A DNA stretch of 22,294 nucleotides from IMG/VR virus record IMGVR_UViG_3300046616_000190, positions 1 through 22,294 of that record, one strand, 5' to 3'. Shown one piece after another: positions 137 to 16,381 of the stretch; position 1 is the stretch's first letter, and every line of letters starts with the position of its first letter. The DNA is from a virus. The notes under the pieces are model-generated. The model saw nothing but the letters and a program-made list of their open reading frames with translations, searched no databases and was not told the origin of the DNA. A program made the position numbers and the translations under genes.

Positions 137-316
137 ATGAATCAGGAAATTCAAGTCAACGTGGTCAACGAGTTTGGCCGCAAGCGGATCAAGCCGGTCG
201 ACCACAACGCCGAACTGTTCTGCAAGCTGCTCGGCAGCAAGACGCTGACCGAGGACAACATCGCCGTCATCAAGCAGCTCGGCTTCGCCGTCACCGTCGT
301 GCCGGAGGAACTGTGA
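137..316 (+). CDS. Small hypothetical phage protein (59 aa)
   Basis: This 59-residue protein starts at an ATG with a well-placed AGGAG eight bases upstream, so the start is secure. The product begins MNQEIQVNVVNEFG and ends VTVVPEEL. It is soluble, with alternating charged and beta-prone stretches, and has no membrane segment or recognisable domain. Its stop codon overlaps the GTG start of the next gene in a GTGA, the first link of the translationally coupled chain that runs to the end of this block. I do not recognise the family. The compact arrangement fits an accessory early gene of a phage. Confidence 0.72.
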   Translation: MNQEIQVNVVNEFGRKRIKPVDHNAELFCKLLGSKTLTEDNIAVIKQLGFAVTVVPEEL

Positions 317-606
317 GCGCCCTGCACGAAGTCAGCGCCCTGTTCACGCCGATGCGCCTGACCGGCCACGGCAACACCGCCGTCGTGCTGCGCGGCAATG
401 CCGGCGGCTTCGACCTGCGCGGCTGCCCGGCCGGGCCGCAACTGGCGGCGTTCATCCAGCGCGCCTGCAACCACCATGCCGACCTGGTCGACGCCTTGCA
501 GATCACGCTCGACCTGATCCAGCAACTGGAAGGCATGGACAACCGCGCCGAGCCGGCCACCGATGTGAGCCAGCTGCACCGGCTGCTGGCCAAGGTGCGC
601 ACATGA
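313..606 (+). CDS. Hypothetical phage protein (97 aa)
   Basis: The protein has 97 residues and uses a GTG start that lies inside the preceding stop codon (GTGA), so it is probably made by translational coupling. Residues 1-55 look like a small globular region containing a glycine-rich turn (LRGNAGGFDLRGCPAG). Residues 55-95 are predicted helical (LVDALQITLDLIQQLEGM). It carries two cysteines, at about residues 37 and 56, with no clear metal-site spacing. I do not recognise a family. The next gene starts inside its stop codon as ATGA. Confidence 0.75.
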   Translation: MSALHEVSALFTPMRLTGHGNTAVVLRGNAGGFDLRGCPAGPQLAAFIQRACNHHADLVDALQITLDLIQQLEGMDNRAEPATDVSQLHRLLAKVRT

Positions 607-749
607 AGCGCCCGCCGCACGTGCCGCCCCGCTCGCCATATCAGGATTACATCGCCACCCAGCGCCGCTACAAGTGGATCGAGCGCGCTGCCTACGTGGC
701 CATTGGGCTGGTGCTCGTCGCCATCCTGTTCGGCCAGATCGGCGCCTGA
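603..749 (+). CDS. Small single-span membrane protein (48 aa)
   Basis: The ATG overlaps the previous stop (ATGA), giving 48 codons. Residues 1-28 are basic and proline-rich (MKRPPHVPPRSPYQDY, then RRYKWIER). Residues 30-46 are a continuous hydrophobic helix (AYVAIGLVLVAILFGQI). The positive cytoplasmic-looking N-terminus and single helix suggest an inner-membrane peptide with its N-terminus inside. Tiny membrane peptides are common among early and accessory phage genes, but the sequence does not reveal the role. There is a 31-base gap to the next gene, which has its own ribosome binding site. Confidence 0.65.
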   Translation: MKRPPHVPPRSPYQDYIATQRRYKWIERAAYVAIGLVLVAILFGQIGA

Positions 750-780: not shown

Positions 781-1467
781 ATGAACGAGAACGACAACAA
801 ATGCGTCTGCGGCGAGCCTGAAACGGCTGGCACCACGCACCGCACCGATGGGCCTTGCCACGTTGCCGAGCGTCCTTCGGTGCCGAGCGTAGCGCAAAGC
901 ATCGAAGACATTAACCGCGTCTGGACCGCGATGCCTGCCGCGCTGTGCAATGAGCCATCCGTGAAGTCGCTCTACAAATCGGCGCTGGCCGCCGCTCAAG
1001 CCGCGCCAGCCACCCCGGCACCAGCCGCCCCGCAAGCAGTACAGGCACAGGTGCCGCCAGAGCAGCGAGCATGGACACCAACGCCCGAGCCGTTCGGCTA
1101 TTTCCGCAAGAACGGCAAGCTCTACGAGCGCCTTCACGGACATCCGAACGAGCATACGCTGAAATCTGGCTGGTTCCCGTTGTGGGCCGCCCCGAGCAGC
1201 ACCGAGGCACGCGCTACCGCAGCCGAGGATGCGCGGGATCAGGTGCTAGAGAAGCTGCTGACGACTGGCGGCAGGATGTCGAACGTGCTTTTCAACTACT
1301 CCCAAATGGAATCGCTGCTACCAAACAAGGATGAGCGCGACGGCTTGAAACAACTGCAACGAGAGTGGGACGAGGCCCGGATCGCCCTCAAGCGCACCAC
1401 TAGCCCCAGCCAGGAACCGGCAAGCGGCACTGCTGGCACACCGGATGCGGAAGGGGCGCAGCAATGA
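781..1467 (+). CDS. Modular early phage protein with Cys/His cluster and Ead/Ea22-like segment (228 aa)
   Basis: I chose the ATG at 781 because AGGGA lies seven bases upstream; an in-frame GTG further upstream sits inside the previous gene. The N-terminus has a possible metal cluster: C8-x-C10, H20, C26, H27. Residues 75-105 are an Ala/Pro/Gln-rich linker. Residues about 104-138 contain EPFGYFRKNGKLYER and end in GWFPLWAAP. This resembles the short modular 'P-L-Y-A-A-P' segment of many Ead/Ea22-type accessory phage proteins, a family assignment I make from memory of the motif. The C-terminus is helical (residues 140-205) and then low-complexity. Function is unknown. The stop overlaps the next start (ATGA). 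Confidence 0.75.
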   Translation: MNENDNKCVCGEPETAGTTHRTDGPCHVAERPSVPSVAQSIEDINRVWTAMPAALCNEPSVKSLYKSALAAAQAAPATPAPAAPQAVQAQVPPEQRAWTPTPEPFGYFRKNGKLYERLHGHPNEHTLKSGWFPLWAAPSSTEARATAAEDARDQVLEKLLTTGGRMSNVLFNYSQMESLLPNKDERDGLKQLQREWDEARIALKRTTSPSQEPASGTAGTPDAEGAQQ

Positions 1468-1667
1468 AAACCTTCAACCTAAGCTGCAAGGTCACGGTCA
1501 GCGCCTACACGGAAGTGCAGGCCAATAGCCTCGAAGAAGCCATCAAGATCGCCGCCACCCGCGACGTAGAGATCGGCGGCATGGGCAGCGGCAACGACCC
1601 CGATGAATCTTGGATCATCGACGATGCCGATGGCGCGCACCAAGAAATCCGAAACGACGAGGACTGA
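1464..1667 (+). CDS. Small acidic hypothetical protein (67 aa)
   Basis: This 67-residue product starts at an ATG overlapping the preceding stop. It reads as beta strand (MKTFNLSCKVTVSAYTEV), then a helix with the pattern NSLEEAIKIAATRDV, then a strongly acidic tail (DPDESWIIDDADGAH). The strand-helix pattern with 'A-x-S-x-E-E-A-I' is typical of small bacterial and phage proteins in which a repeated 'v.A.s.eeAi..a' unit folds as an alpha/beta unit. It gives no specific function. A three-base gap separates it from the next ATG, consistent with one polycistronic message. Confidence 0.7.
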   Translation: MKTFNLSCKVTVSAYTEVQANSLEEAIKIAATRDVEIGGMGSGNDPDESWIIDDADGAHQEIRNDED

Positions 1668-1670
1668 ACC

Positions 1671-2357
1671 ATGACCGATAACACCAAGCGCGGCACCGAT
1701 GCCGCCCCTACTGCCAGCGCACCGAGCGCCGCACAAGACAGCAGTGCAACGAGCGCGAAATGCCCAACTTGCCTCGGCAATGACGGAGATGCTCCGTGCG
1801 CCTACCCGAGCGAAGGAAAGGCGGGGTGCTTGCGCGATAAGCGTCGGGAAGCGCAAGACGGAACCTCCGCTAACGGGTCGGCAGAATGGCGGAGGGCCAT
1901 TCGGCAACTCAACGAAATCACCCCGCCAGCCGCGCATATCGCCCAGCCGCCCGCTATCGGACAGCAAGCGGATAGCGATGAAGTTCTCGCCTTGCACCGC
2001 AAGCTCGCCGCCGAAACGCTGCGCGCCGACCAGGGCTGGCAGCGGTACGAGGCGAAGAACCGCGAGTGCTTAGACTTACGTGCCGCACGCTCGGCCCACC
2101 TCTCCGCAACTAACAGCGGTACCGAAGGCGTGGATACGGACGACTGTGCCGCATTCTCCGATGCAGTGTTATTCGGCACCGCCCCGGCACCGCAAGCTGC
2201 GCCCGACGATGGCGTCAAGCTGCTGCGCCGACTCAAGCGCGACCTGATGCACGCTCGCCTTCACATGCCCGACACGCTCGACACTTACCGCCGCGCCTGC
2301 ACCAGTGCCGAGTGCGACATCGAGGAATTTCTGGCAACCCAGCGAGGTGCAGCATGA
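1671..2357 (+). CDS. Hypothetical phage protein with N-terminal four-Cys cluster (228 aa)
   Basis: The ATG lies three bases after the preceding stop. Residues 1-29 are Ser/Thr/Ala-rich and probably disordered. They are followed by a short Cys-rich module, C31-P-T-C34 with C43 and C53, spaced like a small zinc-binding knuckle. The middle (about 85-150) contains a helical stretch with alternating charges (ALHRKLAAETLRADQGWQRY). The C-terminal 45 residues (DDGVKLLRRLKRDLMHARLH onward, ending FLATQRGAA) form a charged helical module. It is the second of three proteins in this chain with a Cys cluster. The family is not recognised. The stop overlaps the next start (ATGA). Confidence 0.72.
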   Translation: MTDNTKRGTDAAPTASAPSAAQDSSATSAKCPTCLGNDGDAPCAYPSEGKAGCLRDKRREAQDGTSANGSAEWRRAIRQLNEITPPAAHIAQPPAIGQQADSDEVLALHRKLAAETLRADQGWQRYEAKNRECLDLRAARSAHLSATNSGTEGVDTDDCAAFSDAVLFGTAPAPQAAPDDGVKLLRRLKRDLMHARLHMPDTLDTYRRACTSAECDIEEFLATQRGAA

Positions 2358-2530
2358 GCGCCGCTCAACTGGTTGGCGCGGCCATGATTCTCGCGTTCTT
2401 CGCCGTCCTGTTTGCTCTGGTAGCGCGCAGCTTTGGCACCACGGAGGCTGCGATAGGCTTCGGCATTGCGATCGCGGCCACCGGGTTTCTTGTAGGCGCG
2501 GTCTATTTGTTGGTCGGAGGTGCTGCATGA
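2354..2530 (+). CDS. Small two-helix membrane protein (58 aa)
   Basis: This 58-residue product has ATGA overlaps at both ends, so it is tightly coupled to its neighbours. Two hydrophobic stretches are visible: residues about 4-24 (AQLVGAAMILAFFAVLFALV) and about 33-56 (AIGFGIAIAATGFLVGAV). A short polar turn, ARSFGTTE, joins them. There is almost no soluble portion, so it is a helical hairpin in the inner membrane. The topology would also suit a holin or antiholin, but the gene is far from the lysis genes and in the opposite transcription unit. I therefore leave it as a membrane protein of unknown function. Confidence 0.7.
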   Translation: MSAAQLVGAAMILAFFAVLFALVARSFGTTEAAIGFGIAIAATGFLVGAVYLLVGGAA

Positions 2531-3588
2531 GCGCGCACATCAAGACGTGGCAGGTTCGGCTGCTAGAAAACGGGAACATGGGCAACGAGGCGCATTTCAT
2601 GCAAGCCGAAATCGCCGACCTGCGCGCCCGCGTCGCTGAACTGGAAGCGGAACTCAAAGACGCGCTGGTCAGTTCGGGGCTTGCGAACCTGGCGCTTGAG
2701 CAGAGCGCCGCAAAGCTCCAGCAGGCCGACGACTACATCGAGAAGCTGGAGGCGGCCCGGCCCACCGGACAGGCGGCCACCACGGCAAGCGCGAGCCTCC
2801 ACGAACTCAAGCAAAAGCTTGCTGAGGCGATTGGCGAAGGCAATTCGATCACGATCCACGGCCTCCCAGCACCCAGACGTGAGGCTGCACTGGACGACCC
2901 GAAGATGGCGGCGTATCTGCGCAACGAACCTTGGATTGCTGCCTATATCGAAACGCTCGAATGCGAACTCCGCAAGGCCCAGGCAGCGCATGCTGGCGCG
3001 GAGGAAAAACAGACTCAGCAGGCGCACGTGATGCCGCCCGTCGCGGCACCCGTTAGCCAACACGATGCAGACGACCAGTGGATATTCGACTTGGCAGCGG
3101 AACATGAGGTACGTCCGTCACCCCTGTTCGGGCCGGTGGCGTTCAGCAGCACGGGCATTCTGAACTTTGCCCGCGCCATCAAATCCGAGGTAGCCACCCG
3201 GTTCGCGCAGGGCGGCGTAACGAGCAACGAAGCGGCCGACACGCAAGCAGCGCGGGCGGCAGTGCCGTTTTTCAATATCATCCCGACGCTGACGAAAGAA
3301 AAGGAAGCGGCAGCCGAGCGCGGCATCTGCCCGGACTGCGGCACGCCCGACCTCCATCATATCAACAGCGCCGAAGGCATGCGCTTCTTCCAGTGCGGGA
3401 AGTGCAAAGACCTCGTTGTGTTGGGTTTCGCCCCATCAGCCGCACAGGAAGGCAAGCAGGCCAGCGCGCCAGCAGACGAGGAATGCAGCCTGTGTGACGG
3501 GATGGGCTTCATCGACGGTGCGGGATCAATTTGCCCGCATTGCGACGGCAGCGGGACCGAGCCAGCAGGCGGGAAGGGCAGCGCATGA
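2527..3588 (+). CDS. Coiled-coil protein with zinc ribbon and DnaJ-like Cys motif (353 aa)
   Basis: The ATG overlaps the previous stop; an in-frame ATG at 2578 is a possible alternative start. Residues about 18-80 are a coiled coil with regular heptads (EIADLRARVAELEAELKDAL). The centre holds helical modules (residues 90-165) and a region beginning DDQWIFDLAAEHEV of the modular phage type. The C-terminus carries two Cys sites. One is a zinc ribbon, C268-x2-C271 and C290-x2-C293. The other is a DnaJ-like pair, C320-SL-C323-D-G-M-G and C336-PH-C339-D-G-S-G. DnaJ-like repeats bind zinc in the families where they are known, but no J-domain is present. The role is unknown; nucleic-acid or protein binding is an inference. 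It is the largest gene of the left block. Confidence 0.78.
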   Translation: MSAHIKTWQVRLLENGNMGNEAHFMQAEIADLRARVAELEAELKDALVSSGLANLALEQSAAKLQQADDYIEKLEAARPTGQAATTASASLHELKQKLAEAIGEGNSITIHGLPAPRREAALDDPKMAAYLRNEPWIAAYIETLECELRKAQAAHAGAEEKQTQQAHVMPPVAAPVSQHDADDQWIFDLAAEHEVRPSPLFGPVAFSSTGILNFARAIKSEVATRFAQGGVTSNEAADTQAARAAVPFFNIIPTLTKEKEAAAERGICPDCGTPDLHHINSAEGMRFFQCGKCKDLVVLGFAPSAAQEGKQASAPADEECSLCDGMGFIDGAGSICPHCDGSGTEPAGGKGSA

Positions 3589-3746
3589 ACCGCACCCCGA
3601 TCCTGCGCCGTGGCGAGCGCCGCGCCTTCCACAAGTGGCGCTGGTTCAAGGAGCGCCGAAGCGGTTTCGACCGGCGCCAGCGGGTGGCCGACAGCGCTGA
3701 GCCTTGCGTGCCGTCAATATGTACGGATGGCAAGGCGCTACAGTAA
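3585..3746 (+). CDS. Small basic hypothetical protein (53 aa)
   Basis: The ATG overlaps the preceding stop (ATGA). The 53-residue product is strongly basic in its first 35 residues, with many arginines (RTPILRRGERRAFHKWRWF, then ERRSGFDRRQR). It ends in a neutral tail containing two cysteines (EPCVPSICTDG). The 'RSGFDRRQR' segment resembles short 'GRRxxDRRxSGFDRR' motifs seen in bacterial and phage small proteins of unknown function. Charge suggests nucleic-acid or membrane-surface contact, but this is speculative. A 22-base gap with a good ribosome binding site follows before the lipoprotein gene. Confidence 0.6.
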   Translation: MNRTPILRRGERRAFHKWRWFKERRSGFDRRQRVADSAEPCVPSICTDGKALQ

Positions 3747-3768
3747 CGTTTCCACTTTGGAGGTTTCC

Positions 3769-3972
3769 ATGAAAAAGACCCTTGCCGTGTTCTGCATCCT
3801 GCTGTCGGGCTGCGCCAGCGATCCTACCGCGCGCCGCGACTTTGCCGACCGGCTGGCGGTGCTGGCGCAGCAAGTGGCCGCCGCCGACCGCCAGCGCGTG
3901 GCGAATGCGCCCCGGCACGTGGTCTGCACCCCGTCCGGGCCGTTCAACCAGCGCACGGTCGTGTGTTACTAG
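3769..3972 (+). CDS. Small phage lipoprotein (67 aa), candidate exclusion or conversion factor
   Basis: GGAGG lies five bases before the ATG, the strongest ribosome binding site in this block. The protein starts MKKTLAVFCILLSGCAS, a classic type II signal peptide with lipobox L-S-G-C15; residue +2 is alanine, favouring the outer membrane. The mature part is a short helix (about residues 21-44) followed by a C-terminal segment, C-x14-C-Y, that could form a disulphide in the periplasm. Small phage lipoproteins such as Cor of phi80/N15 and Llp of T5 block receptors against superinfection, so that is one hypothesis; I see no direct homology. Its stop codon interlocks with that of the opposing Rz gene. 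Confidence 0.8.
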   Translation: MKKTLAVFCILLSGCASDPTARRDFADRLAVLAQQVAAADRQRVANAPRHVVCTPSGPFNQRTVVCY

Positions 3973-4457
3973 TCGGCCATGCCGTTGCCACGCACGAAGG
4001 CCTGGCACGCGCGCCCGGCCGCCAGCGCGGTTTCGACCCGTTGCTCTAGCTCTTTAATACGTTCCTCAAGGTCTGGGAGAACCAGCCGGCCGGCGGAATC
4101 GGCTGCATCGCCGCCGCCGGGGCGTGCGGGATCGGCGGCGGTGGCAGGCTGGCCGGCACACAGGCGGGGGCCGACGCGCACCCGCTCAGCAGCAATGCGA
4201 GCGACAACAGGGGCAAGTTCTTCATCGTGGACTTTCGTGATGGCGCGGTTGGTTTCCAGTTGCTGCACGGCTTGGGCGGTATTTTCCTGCACGCGCGCCA
4301 GAATGGCTTTCTCTTCTGCTTGTGCACGGCGCGCATCCTCAACCGCGTGCGCGGCCTGTTCGTGCGCCAGCCCGCGCGCGTAGCCGCTGCCGAACAGCGC
4401 CAGCGCCAAGGCCAGCAAAGCGCCCCAGCGCCACGCCAGCGGCACCATGCTAAGCAT
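3969..4457 (-). CDS. Rz: Rz-like inner-membrane spanin subunit (162 aa)
   Basis: This is the last gene of the late operon. Residues about 11-25 form one N-terminal transmembrane helix (WGALLALALALFGSG). It is followed by a long charged helical region that would span the periplasm, with coiled-coil stretches at about 30-85 (EDARRAQAEEKAILARVQEN) and near the C-terminus (LPDLEERIKELEQRVETAL). That is the architecture of i-spanins. The start at 4457 is chosen because AAGGG lies five bases upstream; a second in-frame ATG at 4448 lacks good spacing. The gene overlaps the upstream holin-like gene by eight bases and contains a complete Rz1-type lipoprotein gene in another frame, which strongly supports the call. 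Confidence 0.88.
   Translation of the reverse strand: MLSMVPLAWRWGALLALALALFGSGYARGLAHEQAAHAVEDARRAQAEEKAILARVQENTAQAVQQLETNRAITKVHDEELAPVVARIAAERVRVGPRLCAGQPATAADPARPGGGDAADSAGRLVLPDLEERIKELEQRVETALAAGRACQAFVRGNGMAD
4046..4225 (-). CDS. Rz1: Rz1-like outer-membrane spanin lipoprotein nested in Rz (59 aa)
   Basis: The reading frame lies wholly inside Rz in a different frame on the same strand. It begins MKNLPLLSLALLLSGCAS, a type II signal peptide with lipobox L-S-G-C16. The mature peptide of about 44 residues is proline-rich (PASLPPPPIPHAP, then PIPPAGW), the hallmark of o-spanins. These sit in the outer membrane and complex with the periplasmic end of Rz to fuse the two membranes at the end of lysis. 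The ribosome binding site is weak (GAAAG), as is common for embedded Rz1 genes. It stops 77 bases before the end of Rz, so it is fully nested rather than overhanging. Confidence 0.9.
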   Translation of the reverse strand: MKNLPLLSLALLLSGCASAPACVPASLPPPPIPHAPAAAMQPIPPAGWFSQTLRNVLKS

Positions 4458-4677
4458 CCCGGCCCTTGGCGGCCAGCGAGGCGTTGGTGCGGAAGCGCAG
4501 CGCGATGTTCAGCCCGACCACGCACAGCATGATCAGCTTGTAGCGCTCGGGGGCGAGGTAGTCGGCCAACTGCGGCAGGCTGTCCTTGGCGTAGTCGAGC
4601 GCGGGGATCAGCGCCAAGAGCAGGCCGTTGAGCCAGATGGTCAGCGAGCGCCACGCGCCCTTCAGGTGGTCGGTCAT
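4450..4677 (-). CDS. Second holin-like two-helix membrane protein (75 aa)
   Basis: A very strong AGGAGGAGG precedes the ATG, and the start overlaps the endolysin stop (ATGA). The 75-residue product has two hydrophobic segments, about 12-27 (LTIWLNGLLLALIPAL) and 47-60 (KLIMLCVVGLNIAL). They are separated by a polar loop DYAKDSLPQLADYLAPERY, and a basic C-terminus follows (RFRTNASLAAKG). The pattern 'L-P-Q-L-x-x-Y-L-x-x-x-x-Y-K' matches a group of small proteins commonly annotated as phage holins. Because a T7-type holin already precedes the endolysin, this one may be the true holin, an antiholin, or an auxiliary pore. The sequence alone does not decide. Confidence 0.7.
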   Translation of the reverse strand: MTDHLKGAWRSLTIWLNGLLLALIPALDYAKDSLPQLADYLAPERYKLIMLCVVGLNIALRFRTNASLAAKGRDA

Positions 4678-5138
4678 GCCAGTCCTCCTCCTGCACGTTG
4701 ATAGGCAGCAATCAGGTCGGCCAGTTTGTTGGCGCGTTGCCCATAGCTGTTGCCGGGGAATGAAGCCCAGCGACTGGCACACTTGCCGATGGCCTCGCTG
4801 ATCCGGCCTGCGCCAATATCGTCATAGGCGTGGCATTCCTTGATCAGTTGGATCGCCCACTTGTCCTGCGACTCCTTGCCAAAGTCGGGCAACTCCAGTT
4901 GCGCGCGGTAGTGGTCCCAATAGCGCCCCATGAACTGGTAGCGCCCGGCGGCGTCGGAGTTGGTGGCGTCGTCATGCCGCCTCGGGTGCGACACGTAACT
5001 GCCGAACAGGATAGGATTGGCAGGCGTCGAACCGACGCACACGTTGTAGCCATCATCGGAGGTACGCAGCAGGCGTGGGCCGATTTCCGACCACGCGATC
5101 ATGTCAAGGAAAGCCTTGAGGTTGGATAGGCGGTTCAT
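4674..5138 (-). CDS. Endolysin, lambda R-like lytic transglycosylase, GH104 (154 aa)
   Basis: The protein matches the phage lambda R family, which cleaves the MurNAc-GlcNAc bond of peptidoglycan with formation of a 1,6-anhydro end. The N-terminus KAFLDMIAWSEIG aligns with lambda R KAFLDMLAWSEGT, placing the catalytic glutamate at E18. Other shared blocks are GYNVCVG, SHPRR, AGRYQFMGRYWDHYR, a QLELPDF region, and the C-terminal 'AxxxCAxxWASxPGxxYGQ' motif. Its length of 154 residues is close to the 158 of lambda R. There is no signal peptide or SAR anchor, so release to the periplasm should need a holin. ATGA overlaps link it to both neighbours; AAGGAG lies 11 bases before the ATG at 5138. Confidence 0.95.
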   Translation of the reverse strand: MNRLSNLKAFLDMIAWSEIGPRLLRTSDDGYNVCVGSTPANPILFGSYVSHPRRHDDATNSDAAGRYQFMGRYWDHYRAQLELPDFGKESQDKWAIQLIKECHAYDDIGAGRISEAIGKCASRWASFPGNSYGQRANKLADLIAAYQRAGGGLA

Positions 5139-6566: not shown

Positions 6567-9041
6567 TTACTTGGCTCCTTGTTTGCGCGGTAACTGGTCG
6601 AGTGGCGTTATGGAAGCGTCCGGCACAAGGCCGGCCTGTTCCAGGTAGGCGCTGGCGTCCTGCGAAAATTGTGGGTCGTTGGTCATCTTCGCCGCCATCA
6701 TCAGGCGCTGGGCGTAGGCGGCGGCCTGCTGCGGTGTCTTGACCGGCGGCGCCTTGGCCAGCCAGTTGACGAACTTGGGATTCAGCAGCAGGCGCTGGCT
6801 GACTTGATTTGCCAGCAGCAGCGAGCCGCCCGCCACCGCTGCCGGGGCAATCAGCGGCGTGTAGAACAGCCCGCCGACCACGCCCGCGCCGATGGTGCCC
6901 AGTGCGCCGCGCGCCACCAGTGCCTGCGAGGTTCCCGAAGGATTCGCCCAGACGCCGGCACCTTCGCTCAGCATGTCGGCGGCCTTCGCCACATGCGCCA
7001 GGTTCTCGGCATGGTCAGCGCCGCCCGGCAGGCGCTTGAACAATTCCGTTCTCGCCTGCGGGTCGATCCGGTTGTAGTTGGTCAGGAAGGTGCGCGGCGA
7101 CCAGGCCGTGCCGTCTGCATTCTGCTGGCCGGGCGTGGCCGAACCCAGTTCGTCGATCACGGTTGCCGCTACCTTCTGCCGGGTCTCCGGCGTGACGGCA
7201 TTGCGCAGCCGCTGGTAGATGCTGGGGCCGGCCTTGAGCGAGTTTGCCACCGCGCCATATGCGCCTTCCGGCGTTGGGCGGTTGGCCAGCCCGTTGAGCG
7301 CCTCGACTTGGTCCATTGCATTGCTGTAGTAACGGTTGGCGCGGGACAGCGCTCGTGTTGCCGGCTGGTCGGACGGTCGCATTGGGCCGGTCGGCACTTG
7401 CGCCCGAGTGCGATCTGACGCGTCGGCCGCGTGGCGCATGTCCTGCGACATCGCGCCGTACAACTGCTTGAACTGGCCTTGTTCCGGCGTGCCGATGATC
7501 GCGTTCGATGCCGCTTCCTCGCCGATGCTGGTCCGCAGCGCCTTGAGTGCACCATAGGGCAGGCCGGGGTTTTTTTGCGCGTTCATCAGGGAGGAAAACG
7601 GCGTGCCCGGCGCGGTCGGCCCAGTGCTTCGCTGTGGCAAGGGAATGCGCGGGGCGACCGGGACATTCCACACGTACGGGTTGGCAACCGGCTGCTGCGG
7701 GACGGCGGCTGACAGCGGCAGGTTGAGCGTCGGATTCGGCCCCGTGCGCTGCGGCAGTGGCGGCAGCGCGGCAGACTTTTTCGGCAAGTTGGTCAGGCTG
7801 TCCAAGACGACCGGCGCACGCGGTGGCGGTGTAGTCGCCATCTGCGCCATCGGCACGGTTGGCTCGACCGGCACGTTCCATAGACTGCTGTTGCCAACCG
7901 GAAGCTGCGGCACCTCCGGTGTCAGCGCCGCATGAAGCGTTGGGTTGTCCGCATTGAGCGTCGGGGCCGGATTTGCGCGCGGGCCGTACACGTCGGTACG
8001 TAGGTTCTCGCCGATCTTGGCGATGCGCGGCAGCACCAGGTCGCCCGACGTTGCCTCGGCACCTCTGATTGGCGTCGTGAGCTGGCGCGTCTTGCCCAGC
8101 GTGTTATCCACAGGAACAACGGTGTCATGGCCGACCAGGTTGGCCACTTTGTCGTTCAGCGCACGGGCGGTCTGGTTGATGCGGTTGGGGAAGGCCGTTT
8201 TCAGGTCGGCTTGCACTGCGGCGCCAGCGGCAACGGGGCCATAGTCGGTTGATACCGCGTCACGGATCGCGCCAGTCTTGGCTTGCATCCCTTCTACATT
8301 GGCTTGGCGGGCGCGGTCGTACAGCCCCACCGAGCCGGGCGTTTGCGACAGCAGGTTTTCCAAGCCGCTGATGAACTTATTGCCGGACGCCAGCCCGAGC
8401 GACGGATTATCGACGCCACCCGCTTTCAGGTCCTTGATCCGCTGCGCCATCTTCGGCTGGTTGACGGCGGCGCGCAGGGCGGCAGCGCCTGCGGCAGTCA
8501 CGGCCTGCGGCAGCAGGCCCGCCACTCCGGCCCATTCCGGCGCGACTTCGCCCACCGACCCGGCGGCAAGGCCGGATGCCGCGCCCTTGCCCATGTTGAC
8601 GACTTGCTGCGGCAGGCTGAGGCGACCGGATGGAAAGACGGACGCCCCTGCCACTCGCCCGCCAGTGTGGAGGATGCGCGAAGCCTGGTCCTCAGGATGC
8701 GGATTGTTGACCGCCGCGCCCAGCCCGATATCGTTGGCCTTGCGTGACAGCCATTCGGCAGAGCCTGGAACCTGTTGCCGGTCATATGGCACGGTCCAGC
8801 CCGGCGGCTGATTGCCGGTTGCCTTCGAATAGCCATAGCCAATGCCGGCCTTGGCCAGATCAAGCACGTTGGTGACGGTATCCACCGGTAGGCCAAGAAG
8901 GTCGTTGAGCACGCCCTTGTTGATGCCGGCGGCGCCAGCCTTCACGCGCTCGAATCCGGTGGCTGGTGCGCGAGCAGTCTTGTTCGCCTGCTGCTCGGCT
9001 TCCAAGCGCGCCCGGAACTCGAATTCTTCCTGTTCGCTCAT
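6567..9041 (-). CDS. Large probable ejection / internal virion protein (824 aa)
   Basis: The ATG at 9041 overlaps the upstream stop (ATGA) and is preferred over an in-frame GTG at 9062. Residues 1-30 are acidic and helical. The central part, about 340-480, is proline-rich and contains two related 35-residue blocks 70 residues apart. Residues about 480-690 are helical. A hydrophobic Gly/Ala-rich stretch at about 710-745 (GTIGAGVVGGLFYTPLIAPA) could insert in a membrane. No lytic transglycosylase motif is evident. The size, position after three other candidate ejection genes and membrane-prone C-terminus suggest a protein ejected with the DNA, like the large internal proteins of P22 and T7. This is inference from context, not homology. 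Confidence 0.8.
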   Translation of the reverse strand: MSEQEEFEFRARLEAEQQANKTARAPATGFERVKAGAAGINKGVLNDLLGLPVDTVTNVLDLAKAGIGYGYSKATGNQPPGWTVPYDRQQVPGSAEWLSRKANDIGLGAAVNNPHPEDQASRILHTGGRVAGASVFPSGRLSLPQQVVNMGKGAASGLAAGSVGEVAPEWAGVAGLLPQAVTAAGAAALRAAVNQPKMAQRIKDLKAGGVDNPSLGLASGNKFISGLENLLSQTPGSVGLYDRARQANVEGMQAKTGAIRDAVSTDYGPVAAGAAVQADLKTAFPNRINQTARALNDKVANLVGHDTVVPVDNTLGKTRQLTTPIRGAEATSGDLVLPRIAKIGENLRTDVYGPRANPAPTLNADNPTLHAALTPEVPQLPVGNSSLWNVPVEPTVPMAQMATTPPPRAPVVLDSLTNLPKKSAALPPLPQRTGPNPTLNLPLSAAVPQQPVANPYVWNVPVAPRIPLPQRSTGPTAPGTPFSSLMNAQKNPGLPYGALKALRTSIGEEAASNAIIGTPEQGQFKQLYGAMSQDMRHAADASDRTRAQVPTGPMRPSDQPATRALSRANRYYSNAMDQVEALNGLANRPTPEGAYGAVANSLKAGPSIYQRLRNAVTPETRQKVAATVIDELGSATPGQQNADGTAWSPRTFLTNYNRIDPQARTELFKRLPGGADHAENLAHVAKAADMLSEGAGVWANPSGTSQALVARGALGTIGAGVVGGLFYTPLIAPAAVAGGSLLLANQVSQRLLLNPKFVNWLAKAPPVKTPQQAAAYAQRLMMAAKMTNDPQFSQDASAYLEQAGLVPDASITPLDQLPRKQGAK
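7632..7946 (-). repeat. Two imperfect 35-residue repeats, 70-residue period, inside the 824-aa gene
   Basis: The encoded blocks at residues 366-400 and 436-470 share 19 of 35 positions. Both begin NPTL and carry 'V-P-Q-x-P-V-x-N', then 'W-N-V-P-V-x-P', and end with proline and glutamine. They occupy 7842-7946 and 7632-7736. The DNA has diverged enough that this is an old internal duplication rather than a recent slippage event. The repeats sit in the proline-rich, probably extended part of the protein. Confidence 0.7.
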
Positions 9042-10504
9042 TTGTTCTGGCTCCGTTTCCACGCCTGGTAGCGCGCTTCCTTGTCAGCGTCAAAGACAGG
9101 GACCGCTGGCGGCTTCTTCGGCAGGTCTTTTAACGGCTTCGGCTGAGACGGTGGTTTCTCTACTGGCTCCGGTGGCGTGATCGACGCGCGCTGCTTTTCC
9201 GGCACTTCGGCCAATACACCCCGGATCGCCAGTTCACGATTCCTGGCCTTCTGCGCGATGACTTTGTCGCCGTCACCGATCTGCGGGAAATATTGCTTTT
9301 CTGCGTTATCGAACTCGCTCGGCGCGATGGCTGCGCCCGACTCTCGGCGCAGCGCGGCATTGATGAAGTCGCGCTTGGCCTGATCCAGTGCTTGCTGGCC
9401 TTCGCTGGAAAATGCCGTGATCACGCTGCCGATGCCGGGCAAGCGCGAGCCGGGCGTAGATGTGGCGATCTTGTCATCCGTTGCCAGTTTGCCGAGTGCC
9501 TTGTGCGCCTCCTGCATGCGGGTACCGAACAGCAGCGCCTTGCTCTGGCTGTCGTTCAGTGGCTTGGACACCCCCGCCAAGCGCTCGCCATTGGGGCCGG
9601 TGATGGCCTTGCCGGTGCCGGCGCTCTTGTCGACCAGTACCGGGCCGTCGTCGGTCTGGACGATCTGCGTCTTGCTGTCTTTTTCCGTGCGCCGGTCGAT
9701 CATGCCCTGCACGCCGTATTGCGTTTGACGGCTGTATTCGGTATCCGGCGACACGCCAATCGCGTAGCTCGGCCCCTTCTTGCCAGTATTCTTGTCGATC
9801 AGGTCGTTCGTCTTGCCGTTGTTCACGACTTGGTAATCCGGCAGCGCGCCGAAGCTCGACACTTTCTGCGAGCCGTCCTTGAAGGTGATCACCTGTACCG
9901 GCTTGCCGGTGTCGTCGAGCGCGGTCTTGACCTCCTGCACTTCCGGCTTGAGCTTCTGCGCCAGTTCGTAGTACGGTTTTGCCGCCGTCATGCGGCCCGC
10001 CTGCGCCAATTTGTCGCCCATGCCCATGTAGCGGGTGAACAGGTCGGACTGGTCGGCCTGCGTGGCTGGTTTGGCAGCCGGCGGCGCTGGCTGACCTGCC
10101 GCGCTCATCTGCGGCAGCATCGACAGCGGGCGCGGCGCGGGCGAGGCTTGCGGCTCATTCGACAGCAGCGCGGGCGTGCTCGGCGCAGTGGCGGGCGCGG
10201 CTGGCCCGGTCGGCCCGAGGATCGAGGCGATCTGGCCCGGCTCGTCCAGTTGCGCCTGCGCCTGCTGGTTGGCGAGGTCGAGGTGCTTCTTCTGGGCATC
10301 GGCCAGCGCCTGCTGCTGGAGCTGTTGCAGGGCCGAGTGGTAGCCGCCGGCCCCGGCGTTGATGCCTTGGCCGAGGATCGACCCGAAGTTGCCCTTGCCG
10401 CCCAGCAGCGCGGCGCCGAATTGCAGCAAGCCTTGCCGCGCGGCGCTGTTCTGGCCGGGGTCTTGCGGCAGGTAGTCGGGCAGGTAGTTGGCGAGCAGTC
10501 CCAT
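9038..10504 (-). CDS. Probable ejection / DNA-transfer protein (488 aa)
   Basis: AAGGAGG, overlapping the upstream stop codon, lies four bases before the ATG. The N-terminus (about 23-80) is a glycine-rich helical region (QGLLQFGAALLGGKGNFGS) followed by a Gln-rich coiled coil. A Pro/Ala-rich linker spans about 95-150. The C-terminal third contains the block AKRDFINAALRRESGAAI, then FDNAEKQYFPQIGDG and IAQKARNRELAIRG, at about 374-428. That block recurs in podovirus proteins annotated as DNA transfer or injection proteins; I rely on memory of the motif. The tail is proline-rich and charged. It lies in a row of four candidate ejection genes downstream of the nozzle gene. Confidence 0.8.
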   Translation of the reverse strand: MGLLANYLPDYLPQDPGQNSAARQGLLQFGAALLGGKGNFGSILGQGINAGAGGYHSALQQLQQQALADAQKKHLDLANQQAQAQLDEPGQIASILGPTGPAAPATAPSTPALLSNEPQASPAPRPLSMLPQMSAAGQPAPPAAKPATQADQSDLFTRYMGMGDKLAQAGRMTAAKPYYELAQKLKPEVQEVKTALDDTGKPVQVITFKDGSQKVSSFGALPDYQVVNNGKTNDLIDKNTGKKGPSYAIGVSPDTEYSRQTQYGVQGMIDRRTEKDSKTQIVQTDDGPVLVDKSAGTGKAITGPNGERLAGVSKPLNDSQSKALLFGTRMQEAHKALGKLATDDKIATSTPGSRLPGIGSVITAFSSEGQQALDQAKRDFINAALRRESGAAIAPSEFDNAEKQYFPQIGDGDKVIAQKARNRELAIRGVLAEVPEKQRASITPPEPVEKPPSQPKPLKDLPKKPPAVPVFDADKEARYQAWKRSQNK

Positions 10505-12352: not shown

Positions 12353-12657
12353 CAGTTGCCCGTCAGCGCGCGGGTCTGCACGAAGGTCAGCGGGGCCGTG
12401 ACGCACACCCAGCCCAACAGCAGGTACTTCGACCCTGCCGCGCCCAGTTCGGCCGGCGCGCTGTTGCGCACGAAGTCGCCCACCGCGTAACTGCCGGTGG
12501 TCGGGGCGGCCGGGGCGGCATTCACCGCGCCCGCCATCCGGCCTTCGGCCAATGCGTTGACCAGCGCCGCCGTCTCGCGGGTCAGTTCGGTCAGGCGCTG
12601 CTTGAGCGCCGCTTCGGTATTCTGCGGCAGGCGCGCGTCGGTATTGAGCCGGTTCAT
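12352..12657 (-). CDS. Small hypothetical virion-operon protein (101 aa)
   Basis: The ATG overlaps the upstream stop as ATGA, and the gene ends in TGATG with the next. Residues 12-42 form an amphipathic helix (NTEAALKQRLTELTRETAALV). Residues 43-55 are an Ala/Thr/Pro linker. Residues about 56-98 look like a beta domain (SYAVGDFVRNSAP then KYLLLGWVCVTAP). The 'Y-x-V-G-D-F-V-x-N' and 'Y-x-L-x-G-W-x-C-V' pairing is a common short fold at the ends of phage tail proteins, where it often terminates a fibre. Here it stands alone after a helix that could trimerise. Function unknown; a minor tail component is possible. Confidence 0.72.
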   Translation of the reverse strand: MNRLNTDARLPQNTEAALKQRLTELTRETAALVNALAEGRMAGAVNAAPAAPTTGSYAVGDFVRNSAPAELGAAGSKYLLLGWVCVTAPLTFVQTRALTGN

Positions 12658-14105
12658 TGGTCGCCGTCCGGGATCAGGGAAGGCTGGAGGCCGACGATCT
12701 CGAAGTCGCCGGTACAGTCGATCCGCAGCCGGTGCCAGCGGCCCGAGGCCAGCGGATCGTATCGGCTGCCGTTGATCGGCTCGACCGAGCGTTGCTCGAA
12801 CGCGCCGCCCGCCATGTCGCGGGTGAAATGGGTCAGGCTGGTGGTGCTCGGCAAGCGCAGGAAGCGCGGGGTGACGCGGGTCAGGGTGGTGAACTGGTCC
12901 TCGTCGCCCAAGTCGCCAGTAGTCAGCGAGCACAGCGCGGCAGGGCCGGTCAGGGTCTTGATCTTGTTGTCGGTGCCGAACACGCCCATCGCGGCAGTCG
13001 AGGTGTCGAACACGGGCGAGTCGAGCGGGTAGTCGGGAATCGCGTCGAAACTGGTGGCGGCGCCCGGCGGCCAGTCGTCGTAGGTGGTGTCCGGCTGCTG
13101 GTATAGCAGCACCGCCTGCACGTCCAGTTTCACATGGCCCCAGCGCCCGTTATTCAGGTTGTAGACCAGCGCATCGGTCAAGGCACCGCTCGCCCCGTTG
13201 GCCGGGTAGAACCACCATGCGACGTTCTGGTACTGGTCGAAGTAGGAGCGGATATTCTGGCGAAAGGTCGAGTCCGAATGGGCGAAAAACCATTCCTTGA
13301 CAGGTGCCCCGATGGCTTTCGGCTGCGAGCCGTCGAACAGCCAGAAGTCGTCACGCCCGATGAACAGGTGGGTGGTGCCGGTATCGATCACCGCTTCCTG
13401 GCAGATCGCCCCGGCGTTGGCCGCGATCAGGTCGAACGCCCACACTACCGGCGGCCCGACGTAGCGCCCCAGGTAGGTCGAGCGCTCCTTGTAGACAGCC
13501 ACGTCCTTGCCGAGCCGCTTGGCGGCGCGAATCTCGCCCGGCGTGTCGAGCAGGTAGCCGAACTGCGCCTGCGTGGTCGGAGCCGGGGTCCATGTCGCGT
13601 AGTCGTACAGGCCGGAGCAGGCCCATGCGTCGGGGCGGTCGCCGCCGACATAGGCGTCATTCAGTCCGAACGCCAGCACGAAGCCCGCCGCCGTCTCGAT
13701 GATGCGCGCATGGGGGGCGGTGGCGATGTCGGCAAACGCGCCTGCCGTCGACGACTGGATGCGCTCGGTCTGGTTGCAGGCCAGCGACACGTTGCCGAAC
13801 TGGGCGAAGCGCCAGCGGTTTTCGGTCGACCCGGTATAGCCGCCGCCCTTGGAGCGGTCGGTGAAGGTGGCCCCGGTCAGTTCGTACAGGCCGGTCTGGG
13901 TGCCGGCCAGCACTCGCCGCGCGTTGTTCAGCAGGGACAGCACCGCCGCGCCCCGGCAGGCCGACGGCAGTGCGGCGGCGCCCGCGTCCAGTGGGGTCGG
14001 GGCGCCGGCCATGCCCTTCAGGGTCGGCACGAGGTTGGTGCAGTCGGTCAGCACGCCGGGGGTGGCCGGGTCGAGGTCGGGCGCGAAGCCGGTCATCGGG
14101 ATCAT
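12654..14105 (-). CDS. Tail nozzle / packaged-DNA stabilisation protein, P22 gp10-like (483 aa)
   Basis: The ATG at 14105 has GGGAG six bases upstream and overlaps the upstream stop (ATGA); the frame remains open further upstream but that part is non-genuine. Length (483) is close to P22 gp10 (472). The N-terminal motif 'F-A-P-D-L-D-P-x-T-P-G-V-L-x-D-C-x-N-x-x-P' and repeated beta-rich segments (VLAGTQTGLYELTGATF, LGKDVAVYKERSTYLGR, TTHLFIGRDDFWLFDG) match the P22 gp10-type family. These proteins plug the portal and form the distal tail nozzle. The gene follows the adaptor gene, as expected for a podovirus connector module. Confidence 0.85.
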   Translation of the reverse strand: MIPMTGFAPDLDPATPGVLTDCTNLVPTLKGMAGAPTPLDAGAAALPSACRGAAVLSLLNNARRVLAGTQTGLYELTGATFTDRSKGGGYTGSTENRWRFAQFGNVSLACNQTERIQSSTAGAFADIATAPHARIIETAAGFVLAFGLNDAYVGGDRPDAWACSGLYDYATWTPAPTTQAQFGYLLDTPGEIRAAKRLGKDVAVYKERSTYLGRYVGPPVVWAFDLIAANAGAICQEAVIDTGTTHLFIGRDDFWLFDGSQPKAIGAPVKEWFFAHSDSTFRQNIRSYFDQYQNVAWWFYPANGASGALTDALVYNLNNGRWGHVKLDVQAVLLYQQPDTTYDDWPPGAATSFDAIPDYPLDSPVFDTSTAAMGVFGTDNKIKTLTGPAALCSLTTGDLGDEDQFTTLTRVTPRFLRLPSTTSLTHFTRDMAGGAFEQRSVEPINGSRYDPLASGRWHRLRIDCTGDFEIVGLQPSLIPDGDQ

Positions 14106-14752
14106 CGCGCGCTCCCGATGGTCAGCGTGGAGCCGGAGAAGCGCTCGGCCATGTCGGCAGACTGCAAGGCATTCACCGCCGCCGCGTACTGGCGGGCCGC
14201 CGTCACCGCCCGCATATCGTCGCGGGTGTGCTGGTAGGCTTCGATCAGCGCCGAATACAGGTAGATTTGCGGCGCATAGGTCAACAGCCAGTTGGTGTCG
14301 TCGTCGGCCAGCAGTTGCTTGAAGCGCTGGTAGTACGACAGGGTGAACGTTTCCGGTTGCCCGCCCTCGACCTTCACCAGCCCATCGGCAATGGTGTAGT
14401 AGCGCGGGCTGGCGCTGGCGTCCAGTTGGCTGAACTCCTGCGGCGTCTTGTAGGACAGACTCGGGGTACGTCCCGAGCCATCCGGCACCGTCAGGCGCTC
14501 GACCGCGAGGAAGCCATCGGGCAGTGCTGCCAATGACGTGCGCTCGGTTTGCAGCATGGCGCGGATGCGCAGCGGATCGACCACCACGTCGAGGTCGCGA
14601 AAGCCGTTGTAGATGCGCGCTTCGCCCAAGGTGATGAACTCGCCCAGCATGCCGGAGAGCGAATTCCTGCCTAGCCGGTTGGCGATCATCTGCTTCAACT
14701 GGCCGAGCGTGCCGCTGGCCGGGGCCAGGGTCTGGTCTACGATGATTGGCAT
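14102..14752 (-). CDS. Head-tail adaptor protein of podovirus type (216 aa)
   Basis: AAGGG precedes the ATG by five bases. The sequence contains recurring blocks of a well-spread phage adaptor-like family. An N-terminal helix (LGQLKQMIANRLGRNSLSGM) is followed by the strand LPDGFLAVERLTVPDG, then SLSYKTPQEF and RYYTIADGLVKVEGG. FTLSYYQRFKQLLADDDTNW comes next, and the C-terminal helix is YAPQIYLYSALIEAYQHT. In related phages the product binds the portal ring and forms the docking platform for the nozzle (compare P22 gp4, functionally). Its stop overlaps the nozzle start (ATGA), consistent with assembly of the two together. Confidence 0.8.
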   Translation of the reverse strand: MPIIVDQTLAPASGTLGQLKQMIANRLGRNSLSGMLGEFITLGEARIYNGFRDLDVVVDPLRIRAMLQTERTSLAALPDGFLAVERLTVPDGSGRTPSLSYKTPQEFSQLDASASPRYYTIADGLVKVEGGQPETFTLSYYQRFKQLLADDDTNWLLTYAPQIYLYSALIEAYQHTRDDMRAVTAARQYAAAVNALQSADMAERFSGSTLTIGSAR

Positions 14753-14761
14753 GTGCGCCCT

Positions 14762-16381
14762 TTATACGAGGTAGGAACCCGAGCCGCGCAGGTCGATGTT
14801 GGCATTGAATTCGGCCAGTGTCAGCGAACCCGACCCAACGTTCTGCCCGCTCTTGAGCATGGCGGCGGTGCCGGAGCCGGGCGCCATCCGCATGGTCGGC
14901 ACCGTGTAGCCGGCCGCGAACGTGAGCGCGCCCCACTCGTTGACCTGTAGATACTGGTACGAATTGGCTTCATTGCGCGCCGATGGCATGCCGGTCACCG
15001 ACAGGGTGCCGGCACCCAGCGTGCCCTTGGCCACGTTCAGGAAGTAACTGTAGTGGCAAACGCCATCCGAAATCGTGTAATGGAATTCGTTGATGGTGGC
15101 GGCACCCATCGCGCCGCCACCCGAACTGGTGACGGTCAGCGTGGTCTGGCCGGTGGCCGGGGCAATCGCGCCGAGAGCGCGGGCATAGCTGAAGTTCGGC
15201 CCTGCCGTGCCGATCAGCTGGGTGCCGAAATACGACACCAAGTTCGAGATGGCCGGAATGTTCTGCTGATTGGTGCAGCCTTCAATGGCACCGCCATGCA
15301 GGGTGATGTTGGCGCAGGTGTCCTTCACGAAAAACCCAGTCCCCACGATGCCCGCGCCGCCGTTCGGGTCCGTGCCTGCGGTAGTGAAGTTCTCGATGGC
15401 GGGCGTGCCGCTGAAGGTGTCCACCGCGTCTAGGTAGATGCCGCACGCGCCCTGCCCTGCACTGATCGCCTTGCCACCAAACTTGATGCGGGTCGAACGG
15501 TGTACGCTGGTGCCGTAATCGACCGGGCGCATGTAACGCACGGAAAACTTGCAGCCCTCGAAGGTGGCGTCGATATCGTGCCAGAAATTGCTGCTGTCGC
15601 TGCCACCGACTCGCGGGCCTGGCATCGACAACATGCCATCGGTGCAGTTGCGGATCTGGACCCCGCGACCCAGAACGAAAAACGACTGATCTACCCGCTG
15701 GGTGGATTGCCCCATATTTTCCGGCACCACGCCCACGCCGACTGTATTGTTAGCCGGGCTGACACCCTCGATGGTCAGGTCGTCGATGGTGATATAGCTG
15801 CGCGCGGAGCGGATCGCAATCATGTTGCTGGAACCGCAGCGCAAGGTGGTCCCGCGCCCGGCTCCGCGAATGGTGACGCCATCGTTCGGGTTGACCGATA
15901 CGAACGGAATCAGCAGGCCATTCTTGTAACCGTCAGCACTGGCGGCCCCGCCATCGAGCCGGAACCCACCAGGAGGCAGGTCGAGCACGCGGGCGCCATT
16001 GGTGCCCAGTACATCGGCGGCATACGCGGCCAGCGCGGCAGTCATGTCAAGCGCGTAGGTGTACGCCATGGCGTCGGCCTTCTGGGCGGGCGAGAGGTAG
16101 CTAAAAAAATCGCGCACAGGGTCGAACGGGTCGAACAAGGTCACATCGTTGTAGCTGACCGGCGTGATCCCGGTCCCGGTCACGGTGATGTTGTAATGCC
16201 CGTTGGCCGCGTAGAACGCGAACCGGCCATTTGCATCGGTAGTCACATACGACACGGACGGGCCGCCATCGGCCGCGTAGAACAGCACCGCCTCGCCATC
16301 GGGATAGGCGGTCACGGTGACAATCGCGCCTTGGATCGCCTTGCCGTTCTTGTCGAGTACCAGATCGGTATATTTTTGCAT
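14762..16381 (-). CDS. Beta-helix tail spike with carboxypeptidase-regulatory-like N-terminal domain (539 aa)
   Basis: The ATG shares one base with the preceding stop (TAATG). Residues 1-67 (KYTDLVLDKNGKAIQGA, then VTTDANGRFAFYAANGHYN) are a carboxypeptidase-regulatory-like beta sandwich, seen at the N-terminus of phage spikes where it attaches to the particle. Residues about 80-135 include a helical segment and LDLPPGGFRLDG, the 'L-P-x-G-x-[FY]' start of pectate-lyase-3-type right-handed beta helices. Short strand-turn repeats follow to about residue 390 (GVTIRGAGRGTTLRC, YITIDDLTIEGV, ITLHGGAIEGC). The C-terminus (FAAGYTVPTMRMAPG) is a probable trimerisation tip. Spikes of this build bind or cut surface polysaccharide; I cannot identify catalytic residues. 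Its place between capsid and adaptor genes is unusual. Confidence 0.82.
   Translation of the reverse strand: MQKYTDLVLDKNGKAIQGAIVTVTAYPDGEAVLFYAADGGPSVSYVTTDANGRFAFYAANGHYNITVTGTGITPVSYNDVTLFDPFDPVRDFFSYLSPAQKADAMAYTYALDMTAALAAYAADVLGTNGARVLDLPPGGFRLDGGAASADGYKNGLLIPFVSVNPNDGVTIRGAGRGTTLRCGSSNMIAIRSARSYITIDDLTIEGVSPANNTVGVGVVPENMGQSTQRVDQSFFVLGRGVQIRNCTDGMLSMPGPRVGGSDSSNFWHDIDATFEGCKFSVRYMRPVDYGTSVHRSTRIKFGGKAISAGQGACGIYLDAVDTFSGTPAIENFTTAGTDPNGGAGIVGTGFFVKDTCANITLHGGAIEGCTNQQNIPAISNLVSYFGTQLIGTAGPNFSYARALGAIAPATGQTTLTVTSSGGGAMGAATINEFHYTISDGVCHYSYFLNVAKGTLGAGTLSVTGMPSARNEANSYQYLQVNEWGALTFAAGYTVPTMRMAPGSGTAAMLKSGQNVGSGSLTLAEFNANIDLRGSGSYLV

Follow-up and report, generated by a model that had tools for sequence, protein, structure and literature searches.

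Organization of the accessory operon

The viral sequence considered here (IMG/VR record IMGVR_UViG_3300046616_000190), whose entire stretch of 22,294 bases is hereafter called the window, contains on its plus strand an operon at positions 781 to 3746, which runs toward a lysis cassette (spanin, holin and endolysin) and virion genes on the minus strand. A sequence-only reading had pointed to three cysteine-rich proteins encoded at 781 to 3588, and all three are present as described: the product of gene 781-1467 (228 amino acids [aa]) has C8-x-C10, H20 and C26-H27; that of gene 1671-2357 (also 228 aa) has C31-x2-C34, C43 and C53; and that of gene 2527-3588 (353 aa) has C268/C271/C290/C293 plus C320/C323/C336/C339. 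The two peptides said to accompany them, one in the membrane (2354-2530) and one basic (3585-3746), are likewise found, together with a 67-aa gene (1464-1667) that had been passed over. The genes had all been called translationally coupled, and this holds for the ATGA overlaps with the preceding gene at 1464, 2354, 2527 and 3585, but elsewhere there are gaps of 3 bp (between the genes starting at 1464 and 1671) and 31 bp (between those starting at 603 and 781).

Scans of 2.9 million viral contigs for relatives retrieved four contigs with the same operon, namely, A (3300046615_000437), B (3300046810_000225), C (3300046492_000179) and D (3300047447_000291). A further six contigs (L005 to L010) match part of the 1671 protein only. 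Comparison of the window with A to D gives the following layout, all on the plus strand.

137 to 749, plus strand: conserved, unbroken genes (59, 97 and 48 aa) outside the mosaic, which align with A, B and C
781 to 1467, plus strand: slot-1 mosaic gene, 228 aa, with islands in the same order common with A, B, C and D
1464 to 1667, plus strand: inserted 67-aa gene, with other genes at this place in the relatives, none of which gives an island in 1468-1659
1671 to 2357, plus strand: slot-3 mosaic gene, 228 aa, with islands shared with the relatives
2354 to 2530, plus strand: two-helix membrane peptide, 58 aa, swapped as a whole gene and present in one of the four relatives (D, 95%)
2527 to 3588, plus strand: 353-aa gene that, by alignment, corresponds to the slot-4 and slot-5 genes of contig A joined in frame
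3585 to 3746, plus strand: basic peptide, 53 aa, at the downstream edge of the region, of which B and C retain the first 33 aa

Breakdown of similarity within the operon

Upstream of position 781, the alignment of the relatives to the window is unbroken in contigs A (57-792 at 87% identity), B (1-745 at 94%) and C (99-745 at 86%), with B and C having one extra gene immediately before slot 1. Between 781 and 3588, the similarity breaks into islands with unrelated stretches of differing length between them. Thus, 1369 of the 2808 bases of this region align with no relative and 483 align with at least three of the four, versus 0 and 651, respectively, of the 693 bases of the upstream stretch 57-749. 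This island structure, when compared with the unbroken upstream genes, supports the replacement of modules. The 10 pairs that can be formed from the five contigs have 161 islands, 151 of them collinear, and the median island length of a pair ranges from 31.0 to 47.0 bp; codon-shuffled queries (20 per pair) returned none. Moreover, the codon phase agrees between the two phages in every one of the 132 ungapped islands. The upstream genes are missing from the available part of contig D, yet its slot-1 module and membrane peptide are 97% and 95% identical in DNA sequence to those of the window. The former match extends over 203 bp (window 1018-1220), outside of which the two genes are for the most part unalignable.

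Linkers, inserted modules and fused genes

Reading of the islands along the operon revealed a succession of linkers conserved at the DNA level, between which stand modules that differ from phage to phage.

988 to 1048, plus strand: linker 1, Ala/Pro-rich, with a module inside it in B, C and A
1052 to 1184, plus strand: GYFRKNGKLYERL..GWFPLWAAP module, common with D only (97% DNA identity over 203 bp including the flanks)
1187 to 1237, plus strand: linker 2 (APSSTEARATAAEDARD), in all four relatives
1383 to 1467, plus strand: linker 3, a gene end (SQEPASGTAGTPDAEGAQQ plus the Shine-Dalgarno sequence of the next gene), at which whole genes or a cysteine module are inserted in the relatives
1668 to 1731, plus strand: linker 4 (MTDNTKRGTDAAPTASAPS), with islands shared with the relatives
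1951 to 1970, plus strand: linker 5 (AIGQQAD), in all four relatives
1977 to 2081, plus strand: LRADQGWQRYEA coiled-coil-like module of the 1671 protein, which recurs in L006 to L010
2095 to 2130, plus strand: linker 6 (HLSATNSGTEG), the part at 2095-2118 being present in all four relatives
2977 to 3065, plus strand: linkers 7 and 8 (AHAGAEE; TQQAHVMPPVAAP), with islands shared with the relatives, linker 8 also occurring inside the slot-1 genes of B and C
3204 to 3235, plus strand: linker 9 (GGVTSNEAA), with islands shared with the relatives
3431 to 3475, plus strand: linker 10 (SAAQEGKQASAP), with islands shared with the relatives

Some of the modules are flanked by 12- to 19-bp direct repeats of a linker, and the insertions can be read directly. 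The linker 1 sequences on the two sides of the inserted module overlap by 19 bp in B, 15 bp in C and 12 bp in A. Contig B also has a module with two CxxC pairs between two copies of the 12-bp GCCGCCCCTACT of linker 4, of which the window has a single copy. More generally, a self-overlap of the linker of at least 8 bp is seen in 36 of 141 neighboring collinear island pairs. The linkers, which were read individually without a systematic motif search, differ from one another. The linker at window 3010-3074 also matches the slot-1 genes of B and C, so that it is found in two slots. At gene ends, recurrent C-terminal tags (EGAQQ, GGAA, GESK, EKGKP and GGKDSA) encode the apparent Shine-Dalgarno sequence of the next gene.

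Genes are also fused across slots. The first half of the 353-aa gene of the window matches the gene at 12190-12741 of contig A and its second half the gene at 12738-13463, while a 354-aa gene of contig B matches the 1671 gene of the window in its first half and the 2527 gene in its second. Nested in this fused slot gene of B (8720-9784) is an open reading frame (ORF) in another frame (L020 9396-9719) whose end reads like an XRE/Cro-type helix-turn-helix protein; a small gene may have been inserted whole. Contig C carries an FtsK-like domain in slot 5 (phrog_13700, 7e-15) and, at its slot-1 end linker, a PAPS reductase-like gene (L018 2433-3335; phrog_424, 5e-54). The LRADQGWQRYEA module sits in otherwise different proteins of L006 to L010, and its C-terminal DTLDTYRRACTSAECDIEEFL stretch recurs in a 65-aa protein of L005.

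Recombination genes and a proposed mechanism

All four relatives have a recombinase gene, which codes for an Erf protein in A and C, a Sak-like protein in B and an AAA_24 protein in D. Contig A encodes an Erf-like annealing protein (phrog_155, 6e-33) and NinB/Orf (7e-20) at 7013-8333 (L014), with the conserved upstream genes beginning at 9001 and slot 1 at 9644. Similarly, contig B encodes a Sak-like annealing protein (2e-45) and NinB/Orf (4e-20) at 3381-4686 (L020), with slot 1 at 6756. In both A and B, the operon is thus closely preceded by the recombinase and NinB/Orf genes; the Erf gene of contig C lies near the opposite end of that contig. The protein of contig D was recognized by the Pfam family AAA_24, which we take to cover Sak4. 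The Pfam RecT and Rad52 models found no match in the four relatives, a result that does not mean that a recombinase is missing in B because PHROGs revealed the Sak-like protein there.

On the basis of these observations, we consider it likely that 781-3588 is an early accessory operon in which the genes consist of small interchangeable modules strung between DNA-conserved linkers and are diversified by annealing recombination at those linkers. The modules would comprise zinc-binding knuckles and ribbons, coiled coils, DNA-binding domains and whole small genes. A phage single-strand-annealing recombinase might pair incoming DNA at the linkers, where modules could be replaced, added or deleted without loss of the reading frame. 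The ATGA overlaps, along with the Shine-Dalgarno sequence held in the end of the upstream gene, would keep every new combination translated. Going by what is generally known of early phage accessory genes, the products most likely target changing host factors, either in counter-defense or in host takeover, and such changing targets would reward a rapid turnover of modules. The role in host takeover raised by the sequence-only reading stays a plausible but hypothetical one.

Cysteine sites as passing modules

The cysteine sites of the three window proteins fall into four modules.

802 to 861, plus strand: CxC...H...C module (C8, C10, H20 and C26), common to the window and contig B only
1761 to 1829, plus strand: C-x2-C-x8-C-x9-C module, not at this place in A to D but recurring in a Duganella prophage
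3328 to 3405, plus strand: zinc-ribbon module (C268, C271, C290 and C293), private to the window
3484 to 3543, plus strand: DnaJ-like CxxC..CxxC module, private to the window (phrog_3931, 8e-5; DnaJ chain 1exk_A, E of 0.14)

With 3000 shuffles per protein, CxC/CxxC pairs are above chance in the 353-aa protein (p of 0.0003) and not in the 781 (p of 0.089) and 1671 (p of 0.39) proteins. The slot genes of the five contigs have 18 such pairs in 6148 aa versus 0 in 4810 aa of 15 other genes of the window, a count that is descriptive, as it was made after the slot genes of the relatives had been inspected. The slot genes as a class are therefore cysteine rich, though two of the three proteins are not significant singly. 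Different cysteine modules occupy these genes in the other contigs, namely, CKTCDG..CPDC in slot 3 of B, CKTCGG..CMDC in slot 3 of D, CPFCG..CVPC in slot 5 of A and CATCG in slot 1 of C, with no CxC/CxxC pair in slots 1 and 4 of D and slot 3 of A.

Where a site recurs, its ligands are largely kept. Contig B retains the C, C, H and C of the 781 site and has a tyrosine in place of H27, which is probably not a ligand for this reason. All four cysteines of the 1671 site are kept in an otherwise unrelated protein of the Duganella prophage. A 478-aa protein at L008 339-1775 combines a QGWQRYE module with a CxxCxGNDG stretch like that of the 1671 cysteine module, the later cysteines being missing. 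The zinc ribbon is the best-modeled part of the 353-aa protein, with a 10-residue mean predicted local distance difference test score (pLDDT) of 60 to 80 in residues 251-300 of a single-sequence AlphaFold model and three strands at a pLDDT of 65 to 80; the rest of that model is poor. Such models are poor overall (mean pLDDT of 51.2 and 47.4), and a fold search with the model of the 353-aa protein, at a mean pLDDT of 47.4, gave no match at E <= 0.001. The ribbon scores below the Pfam gathering threshold (Zn_ribbon_IS1595, 13.9 versus 25.4 bits). The match to the DnaJ cysteine-rich domain (TIGR02349, 13.2 bits versus a curated cutoff of 377.2) is limited to the pattern of two CxxC pairs.

The sequence-only reading had inferred from the recurrence of these sites a shared or modular function of the three neighboring proteins, to be judged by their synteny and by the conservation of their cysteines. 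The gene slots are indeed syntenic; the cysteine sites, however, are not conserved at those positions. The three genes have 21 cysteine codons, at 17 of which no relative aligns; three (C8, C10 and C26 of the 781 protein) align with B only and one aligns with C only, leaving none at a position where two relatives align. The composition of the set also varies, with the membrane peptide present in one and the basic peptide in two of the four relatives. There is thus no fixed set of zinc proteins, and a zinc function shared by the three neighbors is unsupported, while the word modular has proved apt in a more literal sense than was meant, the slot genes being chains of exchangeable pieces. The cysteine sites, which may represent zinc-stabilized modules drawn from a common pool, are passing modules, and the point of interest is the locus of shuffling itself.

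Alternative explanations

If the three zinc proteins nevertheless formed a fixed set with a common role in host takeover, the enrichment of Cx1-2C pairs in the slot genes, the recurrence of two of the sites elsewhere with their ligands kept and the three predicted strands of the 353-aa zinc ribbon would be accounted for. This is improbable given that no cysteine codon falls where two relatives align, that the membrane peptide is found in a single relative and that three slots of D and A lack any CxC/CxxC pair. We give equally little credence to ordinary fast divergence, by which the slot proteins would be orthologs whose disordered middles have diverged past recognition, with a few functional patches kept. 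The retained gene order, with 151 of the 161 islands collinear, and an island identity near that of the backbone are what it would predict. It sits poorly with middles that differ both in length and in recognizable families, with linkers duplicated around modules, with genes fused across slots and with a module 97% identical over 203 bp in contig D, whose available part lacks the common upstream genes. That the mosaic arose from chimeric metagenome assembly is exceedingly improbable: the relatives are metagenomic contigs by name, but the window shares its order with four contigs of different names, the frames are open across gene junctions and the ungapped islands are without exception in phase.

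Illegitimate recombination with survival only of in-frame products is also unlikely as an account of the locus. Under such a process, the linkers would be kept as ribosome-binding sites or flexible spacers rather than as guides of recombination, and both the coincidence of the gene-end tags with the Shine-Dalgarno sequence of the next gene and the differing break points of the linker 1 insertions within that linker are in keeping with this. Against it, the intragenic linkers at 988-1048, 1187-1237, 1951-1970 and 2095-2130 have no gene start and yet occur in three or four relatives, and one linker is present in two slots. In addition, the fourfold sites of the islands are more alike than those of a shredded-backbone control in five of six pairs, in each of which none of 12 control replicates reaches the observed value.

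Several observations weigh against annealing recombination at the linkers. In the remaining pair, that of the window and contig C, the fourfold value is attained in four of the 12 replicates of the control. With detection bias controlled for, the raw identity of the islands is close to, and not consistently higher than, that of the length-matched shredded backbone (islands/control, 0.947/0.950, 0.936/0.957, 0.900/0.915, 0.975/0.939, 0.947/0.936 and 0.893/0.885). At gene ends, the need for a ribosome-binding site for the following gene accounts in part for the conserved linkers. AAA_24 is a broad family that was matched in 14 of 14 control genomes, and the window starts past the place where recombinase genes would stand. 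Finally, the comparison has as its base four relatives only, all of them metagenomic and none an isolate. High raw identity of the linkers is thus no proof of recent exchange, and only their fourfold sites still exceed the shredded-backbone control, in five of six pairs.

Database searches and flanking genes

No confident family was assigned to any of the three whole proteins by Pfam, PHROGs, NCBIfam or PADLOC. As whole queries, the three proteins had no tblastn match at E <= 1 in 50,697 phage records, the 781 protein had none in 72,556 plasmid records and module-sized tblastn queries gave weak matches only. A scan of a genome-contig collection with the conserved flanking peptides found no relative. 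When scanned with the modules, the same collection yielded Duganella sp. OV510, whose prophage is the same as L021 (identical ORFs) and was counted once. When 294, 399 and 369 genomes around Duganella were searched, the only matches beyond Duganella itself were weak. A virion protein of the window (12657-14936) was not found in A to D, in a search that had no positive control, so that the structural genes of the relatives seem to differ from those of the window.

In the lysis cassette, the spanin ORF (3969-4711, minus strand) overlaps a second frame with a lipobox-like LALLLSGCAS, as in nested Rz/Rz1 pairs. An ORF for a 67-aa lipoprotein-like product (3769-3972, plus strand) faces the lysis genes and has only weak PHROG matches.

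Relationship to known systems and implications

Domain mosaicism, in which high-identity fragments occur in otherwise unrelated phage proteins and domains are exchanged, gained and lost, was described mainly for receptor-binding, endolysin, neck and replication proteins, with more expected in rarer accessory proteins, by Smug et al. (2023, PMC10684548). The same sharing of fragments is seen between window 1018-1220 and contig D and between the four-cysteine module and the Duganella prophage protein. The present case differs in that it involves a whole accessory operon, with many modules per gene and visible linkers, a term that does not occur in that text. Conserved sequence at the borders of exchange is found in the 161 islands of the 10 pairs and in the linker self-overlap of 36 of 141 neighboring island pairs. 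As described in PMC3029335, module junctions in phage mosaics sit in short conserved boundary sequences; the junctions of this operon resemble them and are, in addition, recurrent, both inside genes and at their ends. De Paepe et al. (2014, PMC3945230) showed that the mosaics of phages are produced by the recombinases Redbeta, RecT and Erf at homologies that are short and diverged, with a contribution from orf. The likeness lies in the homology traces at exchange borders and, going by the genes of the relatives, in candidate Rad52-like recombinases with an orf helper, whereas the exchanges described there are between lambdoid phages and defective prophages at longer homologies, as opposed to the sub-gene modules and repeated short linkers seen here. 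An integron-like cassette array would have one common recombination site between its cassettes; the linkers read here, without a systematic motif search, differ from one another. In place of the point changes of a diversity-generating retroelement, the variation takes the form of module replacement.

Ead/Ea22-like genes are phage accessory genes of unknown function. In this respect they resemble the slot genes (the name appears in PMC9658991), and no Ead/Ea22 model is among the Pfam (E <= 1) or NCBIfam (E <= 0.1) matches of the three proteins. Among the titles and abstract openings listed by literature searches, which covered few subscription papers and preprints, none was on an accessory operon in this linker-and-module form, which is no proof of absence. 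Mosaicism of phage protein domains is thus already known; its operon-wide, repeat-flanked form appears to be new.

More tentatively, the locus may be organized for the shuffling of protein modules, with short linker DNAs, repeated within and between the genes of a coupled operon, serving as homology pads for a recombinase encoded immediately upstream, and could then be a source of counter-defense or takeover proteins akin to exon shuffling. With many candidate homology pads inside accessory genes of several phages, near recombinase genes in two of them, the locus allows the role of such pads to be tested directly. Family-level annotation of the slot proteins risks mixing unrelated modules, and modules rather than genes are the units in which counter-defense functions should be sought.

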